From Coriobacteriia bacterium (lineage in GTDB: Bacteria; Actinomycetota; Coriobacteriia; Coriobacteriales; Eggerthellaceae): a stretch of 53,751 bases of DNA. Shown piece by piece: positions 13,699-27,824 of the stretch. How positions within the stretch are numbered: the first letter of the stretch is position 1; every line of letters begins with the position of its first letter. Below the pieces are notes generated by a model. That model was given only the letters and a program-made list of their open reading frames with translations. It did not search any database and was not told the origin of the DNA. Made by a program: the position numbers and the translations under genes. Location of the stretch: assembly GCA_030523425.1 (NCBI GenBank), contig JAUNIP010000006.1:4558-58308 (forward strand). The letters are read 5' to 3'.

Positions 13699-15045
13699 AT
13701 GGAAGGTTCCCGGAAGGGGAGAAGGCCGCTCACCTACGACGACAGGGTGGCCATAGAGCACGGGCTGAACAGGGGCGACAGGCTCGCCTGGATCGCGCGC
13801 CAGATAGGGCGGACGCAGCAGGTCGTGGCCGAGGAGGTGAGGCGCAACTGGACCGACGACCCCAGGGGGCACCTGACCATCCAGAACCGCAACATCTGCA
13901 CGAAGTACGCGACATGCGAGGTCAGGAGGCTTTGCAAGACGATGTGCACGGCGCCTTGCCGCAAGTGCCGCGACTGGCTTTGCAACTCGCTTTGTCCGGA
14001 GTTCGAGTGCGCGCCGTGCCCCAGGCTGGACAGGGCGCCGTACTGCTGCAACGCATGCCCGGAGCGCCAGGGCTACGGCTGCTCCCACCTGTACCGGTTC
14101 TACGAGGCGTCCTACGCCCACGACCTGGCCAACGAGCGCAGGAGTGACTCGCGCCGCGGCATAGACTGCGACCCGGAGGCATTCGAGAGGGCCATAGCCG
14201 TGATAAGCGAGGGGCTGGCGCTGGGCCAGAGCCCCGCCCACATCATCGAGGCGAACCCGGGCGAGGTGCCGTTCGGCATGCGCAGCCTCTACAACTACCT
14301 GGGAGGCGCCAAGGCCGGGACGCTGTCGAAGCTGGACCTGCCGCGGGCCGTCCGCTACAAGCCCAGGTCCAGGGCCTCTGACGCAGGAAGGTCGCCCCAG
14401 ATACCGAGGGCCGCCCTGGAGGGGAGGCGCTGGTCGGACTTCTGCGCGCTGGACCCCGCCGACCAGGCCAACGCGGTGGAGATGGACACGGTGGTGGGCA
14501 GGCTCGGCAAGGACTCGCAGTGCATACTGACGCTGTTCGTGCGGCGGATAGGCTTCCAGCTCTACGTCCTGCTGCCCGACAAGACCTCGGGCAGCGTCGT
14601 GTCGGCCATAGACACGCTGCAGGAGGTCTACGGGCCGAGGTTCGGGAAGGTGTTCGGGATCCTGCTCACCGACAGGGGCTGCGAGTTCGCCGACGTGGAG
14701 CGCATGGAGCACGGCCGTAACGGCCGCAAGCGACTGTCCGTGTACTTCTGCGACCCCAGCCAGTCCCAGCAGAAGGGAAGGGCGGAGCGCAACCACGAGG
14801 AGCTGCGCCGCATCCTGCCCAAGGGCAAGACAGACTTCGACGCGCTCACGGGCCGGGACATGGCTGCATGCATGAGCCACGTCAACAGCTACATGCGCGG
14901 GTCCATGGGGTGGGTCAGCCCGATGGACATGGCGAGGGCGCTGTTCCCGAGGGACATGCTCGACGCGTACGGCATCGAGAGCATCGACCCCAAGGAGGTG
15001 AACCTGACGCCAGGGCTGGTGCCGCACGCGATCGTGAAGCTATAG
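13699..15045 (+). CDS. IS30-family transposase with Cys-rich insertion
   Basis: DDE transposase of 448 residues. An N-terminal helix-turn-helix (about 10-50, LTYDDRVAIEHGLNRGDRL) binds the ends; the catalytic core has D260 (VEMDTVVG), D322 (LLTDRGCEF) and E360 (KGRAERNHEELR). Between them at residues 67-128 lies a segment with 14 cysteines, probably zinc-binding, not part of the classic 380-residue IS30 enzyme and accounting for much of its extra length. ATG 13699 follows AAAGGAG. The gene is intact, so the element may still be active. Strong AGG and ATA codon use sets it apart from the host genes. Confidence 0.93.
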   Translation: MEGSRKGRRPLTYDDRVAIEHGLNRGDRLAWIARQIGRTQQVVAEEVRRNWTDDPRGHLTIQNRNICTKYATCEVRRLCKTMCTAPCRKCRDWLCNSLCPEFECAPCPRLDRAPYCCNACPERQGYGCSHLYRFYEASYAHDLANERRSDSRRGIDCDPEAFERAIAVISEGLALGQSPAHIIEANPGEVPFGMRSLYNYLGGAKAGTLSKLDLPRAVRYKPRSRASDAGRSPQIPRAALEGRRWSDFCALDPADQANAVEMDTVVGRLGKDSQCILTLFVRRIGFQLYVLLPDKTSGSVVSAIDTLQEVYGPRFGKVFGILLTDRGCEFADVERMEHGRNGRKRLSVYFCDPSQSQQKGRAERNHEELRRILPKGKTDFDALTGRDMAACMSHVNSYMRGSMGWVSPMDMARALFPRDMLDAYGIESIDPKEVNLTPGLVPHAIVKL

Positions 15046-15895: not shown

Positions 15896-16339
15896 CTACA
15901 AGGTGCCGCTGCTGCCGAATCCGCCGGATCCGCGCTGGGTTTCTTCCAGATTGTCTTGCTCTTGCAGCGCAAATTCAGGCGTTGGCAGCAACACCAGCTG
16001 CGCTATGCGTTCGCCCCTGCGTGCCGTAAAGGTTTCCTTCGGGTCTAGGTTCACCAAGGCAACCATCACTTCGCCGCGGTAGTTGGAATCTATCAGACCC
16101 GGGGCATTCGCCACGGTGACGCCCCGCTTGGCCGCTAAGCCGCTGCGCGGCAGCACGAAGCCGCCGTATCCCGCAGGGATGGCCAGCGAAAAGCCGCAAG
16201 GCACCAGCAGGCGCTCAAACGGTTTCAGGCTGATGTCCACGGTGCTGCGCACATCCATGCCGGAATCCCCCACGTGGGCATACGCCGGCAATTCGATACT
16301 GGCATCCAAACGCTTAACAGGAACCGACAAAGCCGCCAT
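15896..16339 (-). CDS. dut: dUTP diphosphatase
   Basis: Trimeric dUTPase of 147 residues that hydrolyses dUTP to dUMP, keeping uracil out of DNA and supplying thymidylate synthesis. All five motifs are visible: GDSGMDVRS, PRSGLAAKRG, GLIDSNYRGEVMV, RRGERIAQLVL and the C-terminal RGSGGFGSSG. The ATG at 16339 shares one base with the stop of nrdR (TGATG), so translation is coupled. Pairing with nrdR makes nucleotide-pool control the common theme. Confidence 0.95.
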   Translation of the reverse strand: MAALSVPVKRLDASIELPAYAHVGDSGMDVRSTVDISLKPFERLLVPCGFSLAIPAGYGGFVLPRSGLAAKRGVTVANAPGLIDSNYRGEVMVALVNLDPKETFTARRGERIAQLVLLPTPEFALQEQDNLEETQRGSGGFGSSGTL

Positions 16340-16785
16340 CAGTGCAGCCTTTCCAGCTCGGACGTGAATTCGTCGATGCTCTTGAAGTCCTTGTAAACAC
16401 TGGCAAAGCGAATGTAGGCAACTTCGTCCAGACACGCCAAACGCTGCAGAGTCAGTTCACCTAAATCCTGCGAGCGGATGGTAGTGCGCGTGCTGGTGCG
16501 TAATTCTTTTTCAATGTTGTCAATGAGCTTGTTGATGCTTTCGCTGTTCACGGGCCGCTTGGCACAGGCCATCAAAATTCCCCTGAACAGTTTCTGGCGG
16601 TCGTAAGGTTCGCTTGAACCATCAGCCTTGATGACAACGATGGGCGTTTCGCTCAACCGTTCATAGGTGGTGAAACGCTCACCGCATTTCAGGCATTCGC
16701 GCCGACGCCTGATGGCGCTTCCGTCATCGGAGGGACGGGAGTCGACAACCTTGGATTCCTCATAAGAACACGTAGGACAACGCAT
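16339..16785 (-). CDS. nrdR: Transcriptional repressor NrdR
   Basis: Nucleotide-sensing repressor of ribonucleotide reductase genes. A zinc ribbon (C3, C6, C31, C34) is followed by the ATP-cone domain beginning ETPIVVIKADGSSEPYDR at about 45. Length 148 residues is typical. The frame continues upstream, but ATG 16785 gives the canonical MRCPTC start and follows AAAGG. A plausible promoter (TTGGAT-17-TATCGT) lies just upstream. Confidence 0.96.
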   Translation of the reverse strand: MRCPTCSYEESKVVDSRPSDDGSAIRRRRECLKCGERFTTYERLSETPIVVIKADGSSEPYDRQKLFRGILMACAKRPVNSESINKLIDNIEKELRTSTRTTIRSQDLGELTLQRLACLDEVAYIRFASVYKDFKSIDEFTSELERLH

Positions 16786-16846: not shown

Positions 16847-16897
16847 GGCGGTTCTGATTGGGCCACATTTCAGGAAAATGGCCCCATCAGAGCCGCC
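16847..16897 (-). other. Long stem-loop between the SOS-linked gene and nrdR
   Basis: GGCGGTTCTGATTGGGCCA (16847-16865) pairs over 19 positions with 16879-16897, with one G-U and one mismatch, around a 13-nt loop. It lies between the stop of the small SOS-linked gene and the nrdR promoter. There is no T-run after it in the minus direction, so it is not a classic terminator, though stem strength and position fit transcript ending. Confidence 0.55.
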
Positions 16898-16917: not shown

Positions 16918-17229
16918 TTACAGCACCGCCGCCAGCAGAACAACCAGCGCCACGACGCCCCCAAACACAAGGCAGGCGCTTTTCGGCAGGTTCTGGGCGC
17001 TGCGGCCGCGCAGCGTGCCGGTGCGCAGCAAACGCGCGACATCAACGAATTCGCTTTTCAGGAATTCGCCGTAACCGATTTCCTGATAGACGGTGCCATG
17101 AGGTATCTGGGAAGGTGCGGACCCAGGGAATGCGATAACGTTGCCCTTTGCGTGAGCAGCGCTTCCCTGCTGATCCAGCTTCAAGGCGGAGGTGCCACAG
17201 ATAGCGGTGCGTGTTTCAAAATTTTTCAT
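16918..17229 (-). CDS. Tail-anchored small protein of unknown function, divergent from lexA and under SOS control
   Basis: A 103-residue protein: polar, weakly structured N-terminal half, a short region around GTVYQEIGYGEFLKSEFVDV, then a single C-terminal membrane helix (about 85-103, CLVFGGVVALVVLLAAVL) with almost nothing after it. No LysM domain is recognisable. ATG 17229 is preceded by a perfect AAGGAGGT. Its promoter (TTGACA-17-TATTAT) has a perfect LexA box in the spacer. In other Gram-positives the gene divergent from lexA is often a small SOS-induced membrane protein that delays division (YneA in Bacillus, Rv2719c in Mycobacterium). Position, regulation and a membrane helix match; the sequence does not, so a division-inhibitor role is a hypothesis. 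Confidence 0.75.
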   Translation of the reverse strand: MKNFETRTAICGTSALKLDQQGSAAHAKGNVIAFPGSAPSQIPHGTVYQEIGYGEFLKSEFVDVARLLRTGTLRGRSAQNLPKSACLVFGGVVALVVLLAAVL

Positions 17230-17247
17230 TTTTTACCTCCTTGACTC

Positions 17248-17277
17248 TTGCGTAGAACCAATGTTCGTGTTTATAAT
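17248..17277 (+). promoter_or_regulatory. lexA promoter
   Basis: TTGCGT (17248-17253), an 18-bp spacer and TATAAT (17272-17277). A LexA box occupies the spacer and another lies at the expected transcription start, giving direct autorepression. Confidence 0.65.
17255..17266. promoter_or_regulatory. LexA box 1
   Basis: GAACCAATGTTC matches the Gram-positive SOS consensus GAAC-N4-GTTC perfectly. It lies within the lexA promoter spacer. Confidence 0.85.
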
Positions 17278-17301
17278 AGTGCGAACAAAAGTTCATGTCA
17301 A
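17273..17301 (-). promoter_or_regulatory. Promoter of the SOS-linked small gene
   Basis: On the minus strand TTGACA (17296-17301) is a perfect -35, followed after 17 bp by TATTAT (17273-17278). The -10 overlaps that of lexA base for base on the opposite strand, so polymerase cannot occupy both promoters at once. Confidence 0.75.
17283..17294. promoter_or_regulatory. LexA box 2
   Basis: GAACAAAAGTTC is a perfect GAAC-N4-GTTC. It lies between the -35 and -10 of the minus-strand promoter and at the start of the lexA transcript, so it should control both genes. Confidence 0.85.
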
Positions 17302-17310
17302 TAGAATTTA

Positions 17311-17322
17311 AAACATTTGTTC
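17311..17322. promoter_or_regulatory. LexA box 3, one mismatch
   Basis: AAACATTTGTTC differs from consensus by one base in the left half. It is 28 bp from box 2, exactly as box 2 is from box 1, which argues it is a real site. Confidence 0.65.
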
Positions 17323-17348: not shown

Positions 17349-18008
17349 ATGAGCGACAAACTTTCGAAACGGCAGCAAGCGGTCCTAGACTGCATCAAGC
17401 AATGCATCGAAGAGATTGGCTACGCCCCCACCGTGCGGGACATCTGCCGCCGCATGGGGCTTTCCTCCCCTTCCACGGTCCATGTGCACCTGAACTCGCT
17501 AGAGGAAAAGGGCTACATCAAGCGTGACCCGCTGAAATCGCGCTCTATCATCCTTATACCGCAGCCGGGCGAAGAACAAGCGCAATCCGCCGCGGCAAAC
17601 CTGAAGGCTTCCCTGGGCAGCACCAGCTTCAGCAAGACCATCACGGTGCCCCTGGTAGGCAATGTGGCCGCCGGCACCCCCATCCTGGCCGAACAAAACA
17701 TTGAAGACAATCTGTCCCTTCCCGTGGATATTGTGGGAGACGCGGCGTCCTTCATGCTGAACGTGCACGGCGATTCCATGGTGGAATGCGGCATCAACGA
17801 CGGCGACTATGTGGTGGTGAAGGAACAGCCCAGCGCGAACAACGGCGATATTGTGGTAGCCCTCATAGACGACGGCGCCACGGTGAAACGGTTCTACCGT
17901 GAAAAGGACCACATCCGCCTGCAACCGGAAAACTCTTCCATGGACCCCATCATCACGCGTGATTGCTCCATAGCCGGCAAGGTTGTGGCGGTTTTCCGTC
18001 GTCTGTAG
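17349..18008 (+). CDS. lexA: SOS repressor LexA
   Basis: Self-cleaving repressor of 219 residues. N-terminal winged helix (about 1-65, with the recognition region TVRDICRRMGLSSPSTVHVH), linker, then the S24 peptidase domain with cleavage site A108-G109 (NVAAGTP), catalytic S143 (HGDSMVE) and K180 (GATVKRFY). The frame opens earlier, at 17295, but ATG 17349 behind AAAGGAG gives the standard MSDKLSKRQQ start. The three boxes upstream show strong autoregulation. Convergent with hflX, 18 bp apart. Confidence 0.97.
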   Translation: MSDKLSKRQQAVLDCIKQCIEEIGYAPTVRDICRRMGLSSPSTVHVHLNSLEEKGYIKRDPLKSRSIILIPQPGEEQAQSAAANLKASLGSTSFSKTITVPLVGNVAAGTPILAEQNIEDNLSLPVDIVGDAASFMLNVHGDSMVECGINDGDYVVVKEQPSANNGDIVVALIDDGATVKRFYREKDHIRLQPENSSMDPIITRDCSIAGKVVAVFRRL

Positions 18009-27796: not shown

Positions 27797-27824
27797 ATTA
27801 TACGAACATCTGTTTCAGAGTCAA
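27797..27824 (-). promoter_or_regulatory. recA promoter with embedded LexA box
   Basis: On the minus strand TTGACT (27819-27824), 16 bp, TATAAT (27797-27802). The spacer contains AAACAGATGTTC (27804-27815), which matches the GAAC-N4-GTTC SOS box except for the first base, the same deviation as LexA box 3 at lexA. Confidence 0.8.

Follow-up and report, generated by a model that had tools for sequence, protein, structure and literature searches.

The lexA-linked inhibitors known so far exert their effect at a late stage of division, and accounts of the SOS division inhibitors of Gram-positive bacteria often present them as unlike one another although they occupy a single site. The small gene divergent from lexA in the genome studied here, called X below, raises the question of whether it is one more occupant of separate origin, as an earlier note on this DNA proposed, or a relative of the LysM proteins found at the same position, and of what its product might do after DNA damage. 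The window, that is, the whole stretch of DNA analysed, has a length of 53,751 nucleotides and comes from a genome of 1.97 Mb (92 contigs, 99% complete); the relatives compared within the family belong to other genera.

X is read from the minus strand (16918-17229) as an open reading frame (ORF) for a protein of 103 aa without LysM, predicted to be tail-anchored. A distance of 119 bp separates its ATG from the start codon of lexA, and its leader ends, after the second palindrome on the X strand, in AAGGAGGT-AAAAA-ATG; the ribosome-binding site AAGGAGGT (17235-17242, minus strand), already pointed out in the earlier note, stands five bases ahead of the ATG. The divergent neighbour lexA (17349-18008, plus strand; TIGR00498, E=3.9e-69) encodes the presumed repressor. 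The downstream neighbour is nrdR (16339-16785, minus strand; Pfam NrdR zinc ribbon and ATP-cone), and the order lexA-X-nrdR is conserved. Just 3' of X lies a strong imperfect palindrome (16847-16897; folding z = -5.7 for a 141-nt stretch), a long stem without a T-run behind it that could be a terminator or a REP-like element. Elsewhere in the window, the plus-strand ORF at 13699-15045 presumably encodes an IS30-type transposase, which it resembles.

The X protein gave no match in Pfam or PHROGs and no meaningful match in NCBIfam. The AlphaFold2 model, built with 53 sequences (mean pLDDT 68), shows residues 1-58 as disordered, a helix at residues 59-70 and a confident helix at residues 83-102 (pLDDT about 96). 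The N-terminal motif GTSAL occupies codons 12-16 (17182-17196), and its residues G12, A15 and L16 are invariant or conserved in at least 90% of the family alignment A1. The second conserved motif, VIAFPG, predicted to be cytosolic, lies at codons 31-36 (17122-17139) and corresponds to II-x-FP in translations of the X family and to an LxEGG-like stretch in those of the LysM homologues. The predicted juxtamembrane helix (codons 59-70, 17020-17055) stands beside the conserved LRxGxxxG. The predicted C-terminal transmembrane (TM) helix (codons 83-102, 16924-16983) stops at residue 102 of 103, which leaves no extracellular C-terminal segment; in 78 relatives, charged residues make up at most 1% at each of the last 18 positions. 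A single C-terminal membrane helix and the absence of LysM, both claimed earlier, are supported for X. The family consensus in A1 is MxNFxxxYxVxGTSALxP...IIxFP...variable linker...LRxGxxxG...Q....G....A.A......G.

The X promoter (17273-17301, minus strand) combines TTGACA (17296-17301) and TATTAT (17273-17278) with a spacer of 17 bp and reads TTGACA-TGAACTTTTGTTCGCAC-TATTAT on its own strand. It matches at 11/12 positions. The 1.4-kb region has one other promoter-like site, a weaker one, where shuffled sequences would give 0.7 such sites; this agrees with the strong promoter described before. The spacer contains LexA box 1, GAACTTTTGTTC (17283-17294), a perfect palindrome and the single box of the earlier note. 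Two additional boxes were found: box 2, GAACCAATGTTC (17255-17266), also a perfect palindrome, 28 bp from box 1 and within the inferred lexA promoter, and box 3, AAACATTTGTTC (17311-17322), with one mismatch. Perfect GAACN4GTTC occurs at two sites in the whole window, both between X and lexA. The lexA promoter, read by eye on the plus strand, comprises TTGCGT (17248-17253), 18 bp and TATAAT (17272-17277), and its -10 element overlaps that of X. As lexA and X share the -10 region and box 2 lies in the lexA spacer, one LexA array could close both promoters. The sole other promoter in the window with a box in this layout is that of recA (27797-27824, minus strand), TTGACT-16-TATAAT with the LexA box AAACAGATGTTC (27804-27815) in its spacer; the identical layout supports the reading of the motif as a LexA operator.

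For the examination of conservation, tblastn searches, with the surroundings of the hits, and lexA loci were surveyed in 119 genomes of the family of the source genome (f1) and 197 genomes of the class; ORFs at these loci were called by a script and corrected by eye, and a 36-aa ORF of family f11 (L265) was left out of the comparison. A small divergent membrane protein stands between lexA and nrdR in most of these genomes. X homologues occur at this position in dozens of genera of the Eggerthellaceae-like family, that is, in most family genera, the result of the search beside lexA that had been suggested earlier. X is missing from about 11 of the 101 sampled family genomes; about a dozen gene-less loci may include assembly faults, and one such genome (G060) is of low completeness. 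The family diverges fast. The motif G[ST]xA[LVRI] is present within the first 30 aa of 69 of the 78 distinct family proteins, against 0.28% of shuffles.

The three-box array with the TTGACA promoter beside lexA is conserved across the family. Adjacent to box 1, the -35 hexamer was present at 77 of 78 loci carrying a long form of X and at all 11 carrying a short one (88/89 together); where the gene is absent, it was found at just 1 of 12 loci (p=9e-13). The promoter is kept with the gene and gone without it, which assigns it to X. X has disappeared together with the -35 element at ten loci (L079, L075, L189, L200, L206, L209, L210, L215, L217 and L222); at most gene-less loci the LexA boxes persist, in line with lexA autoregulation. 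Judged by these operators, X is probably under LexA/SOS control and so damage-inducible, as the earlier note had it. No study of LexA in Eggerthella lenta came up in a search of the literature.

The order contains two large sister families, f4 and f10. Their proteins at the lexA-divergent position, like those from other orders of the class, share with X the lexA-X-nrdR position, the LexA boxes and a single TM helix. Unlike X, they carry an extracytoplasmic LysM after this helix and end in it. Pfam LysM was detected in 34 of 38 lexA-divergent proteins from the LysM-bearing families and outgroups, in 0 of 53 members of the X family and in none of the ten proteins examined from f3 and f5-f9. The LysM proteins of f4 and f10 resemble X at the N-terminus, where they carry the GTSAL motif in forms such as DGTSALKT..LVLIEGG, EGTAALKP..LTLIEGG and GNLALKL. 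A profile built solely from the 78 family N-termini was scored against 12,400 shuffles as a control. All of the shuffles scored below eight proteins of f4 (G210, which lacks LysM, and seven that carry it) and below four from f6, f8 and f9, while proteins of other orders gave background scores. The f3 and f5 proteins did not match the profile, and we do not claim them as proven homologues of X. An alignment of the X family with the LysM proteins by hhalign gave E=1.8e-5 across the first 22 residues; past the N-terminus it found no alignable homology, and overall identity is low.

The shared N-terminal motif and the lexA-X-nrdR position together mark X as a LysM-less derivative of a lexA-linked TM-LysM protein of the ChiZ/YneA type, a descent traced through about 22 N-terminal residues, a limited length, and through position. 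The LysM-bearing f4 shows an independent loss of LysM in G210 and G248, two species of a single genus, whose proteins terminate in a TM helix. In the LexA tree, the LysM-bearing families, the outgroup orders and a LysM-less f7 genome form one supported group (95/90), and the LysM-less f1, f3, f5, f6, f8 and f9 fall outside it; the deep branches are weak. Because long branches leave the deep families loosely placed, the number of LysM losses is given as at least two, with a single loss before f1 as the simplest reading for the X family.

X has also been shortened within its own family, to forms of 57, 55, 48, 34 and 23 aa that retain the TM helix. In genus g6, a 23-codon ORF (MSRFEFPIAFALSTVVSFVMLFA and alike) of exactly the same length stands at the X position in 8 of 8 readable genomes (L048, L054, L058, L069, L071, L278, L279 and L281), with promoter, boxes, ribosome-binding site and start distance as in X, and encodes almost nothing beyond the TM helix. 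ORFs of 23 codons are easily overlooked in annotation, and those of g6 were likely missed. Genus g18 (L188, L194 and L197) has a form of 33-34 aa, and the forms of 48, 55 and 57 aa occur in other family genomes. The TM helices of short forms are closer to those of longer members than shuffled sequences would be (0 to 16 of 2,000 shuffles as good); one is identical at 10 of 20 positions to the TM helix of an 80-aa protein. On the LexA tree g6 branches from within the family, and the sister of this clade is a genome whose X has 75 aa (99/92).

Selection on these forms was examined as pN/pS from raw proportions, with synonymous sites near saturation. In the long forms the pooled, uncorrected ratio was 0.42 for the N-terminal, 0.52 for the middle and 0.33 for the C-terminal part, the lowest value indicating that purifying selection is strongest on the TM part. 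For the 23-aa form in the eight genomes, mean pS was 0.58 and mean pN 0.16 (ratio 0.27), third-position variation was in excess (P=3e-5, without tree correction), and one genome pair differed by nine synonymous and zero replacement changes. That selection still keeps a bare helix of 23 residues suggests that the helix is the part of X that does the work.

Two readings would deny X either this ancestry or a function. On the reading of the earlier note, X would have come to the site independently, and would then share no ancestry with the LysM proteins; the absence of LysM and of any Pfam match, the low identity and the confinement of the hhalign homology to the N-terminus speak for that. A motif in common that scores beyond all shuffles, the profile match, the same position and orientation as the LysM proteins, and the further loss of LysM seen within f4, a family that otherwise bears it, make it very unlikely, and the claim of an independent occupant is given up here. 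Fast divergence, progressive shortening and loss in some lineages would also fit a remnant that lost its function with LysM and erodes neutrally. This is about as improbable, as pN/pS lies well under 1 in all parts of X and in the 23-codon ORF, the 23-aa length is exact in eight genomes, and the promoter is retained only where the ORF is. With one occupant tied by descent to LysM proteins, and with intermediates still living, dissimilarity among the occupants of the site need not mean independent origin.

What X might do was approached by comparison with known systems. Two traits of the kind formed by YneA, ChiZ, DivS and SosA are found in X, a place beside lexA under LexA boxes and a small size with one predicted TM helix; the LysM domain of YneA and ChiZ is absent. 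ChiZ (Rv2719c) of Mycobacterium tuberculosis likewise lies beside lexA and has a disordered cytosolic arm and one TM helix, but differs in its LysM and reported hydrolase activity; according to a review, this LysM appears unnecessary for function (PMC3989709). DivS of Corynebacterium and SosA of Staphylococcus are, like X, lexA-linked proteins of the SOS type with a single TM helix, and inhibit division without LysM (PMC6851548); no sequence likeness to X is shown, and they have an extracellular C-terminal part after the TM helix, whereas X ends at it. An analogue of the 23-34-aa forms is SidA of Caulobacter, a tiny SOS-induced TM peptide of 29 aa that blocks division through FtsW (PMC4211646); it belongs to another phylum, and neither homology nor lexA linkage is claimed. 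YneA of Bacillus subtilis is repressed by LexA, as X probably is, and shares with X the lexA linkage and the single TM helix, which is N-terminal in YneA. Its TM segment alone goes to the septum by binding TM7 of FtsW, but YneA without LysM is not toxic and does not inhibit division (PMC13396833). Loss of LysM could thus mean loss of inhibitory activity in X, and this is the main counter-evidence to what we propose.

We hold with moderate confidence that X is an SOS-induced TM-helix inhibitor of septal wall synthesis descended from a LysM protein. In the lineage of X, the lexA-divergent TM-LysM protein of Coriobacteriia lost its extracytoplasmic LysM and kept the disordered, presumably cytosolic arm (GTSAL...IIxFP), the juxtamembrane helix and the C-terminal TM helix. 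After DNA damage, RecA would trigger LexA self-cleavage, the boxes in the divergent promoters would be freed and X would be strongly synthesized. Its TM helix might then dock within the membrane on the FtsW-FtsI septal wall synthase and keep it inactive, so that division waits for the return of LexA, and the cytosolic arm may help targeting or turnover. The TM helix is the last part retained, which suggests a TM-to-TM block of the synthase; FtsW, of whose FtsW/RodA family the genome encodes three proteins, is named as the target by analogy only. We infer the induction, topology and target of X, as well as the arrest of division. More tentatively, and with less than even confidence, repeated paring, of LysM at least twice and then of the cytosolic arm, may have left a 23-residue SOS-induced TM helix that blocks the septal synthase alone. 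If true, the TM helix and not LysM would be the irreducible effector, the opposite of the YneA finding.

Other membrane activities have to be weighed against such a block. TisB is a precedent for an SOS-induced membrane-active peptide; its helix carries charged residues, and control by an antisense RNA is another trait of its kind. With LexA control and erosion to a hydrophobic helix of 23 aa, X could be such a peptide, lowering the membrane potential so that cells grow more slowly or persist more often. Its essentially uncharged C-terminus does not form an amphipathic charged helix, and its position and N-terminus link it to the division-inhibitor type of LysM protein; we regard this role as unlikely. 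The dependence of YneA on its LysM would instead suit an SOS membrane protein with a target outside division, e.g., in the regulation of envelope stress or proteolysis. Such a target is only slightly less improbable, since the lexA-linked TM proteins characterised in Gram-positive bacteria and named in two papers are division inhibitors (PMC6851548, PMC3989709).

For the proposed septal block, nature provides a series behind the same promoter, from the LysM protein of about 145 aa through tail-anchored proteins of 75-150 aa to the 57-, 55-, 48-, 34- and 23-aa forms. It amounts to a ready-made deletion series for finding which part of an inhibitor stops septal synthesis. At the LysM end of this series, the lexA-divergent proteins of other orders of the class (L254-L275) end in a recurring -[VML]AxR tail (MVASR, MAAR, EVAQR), which may be recognised by a CtpA-like protease; signals of this sort have been proposed in SosA and YneA.
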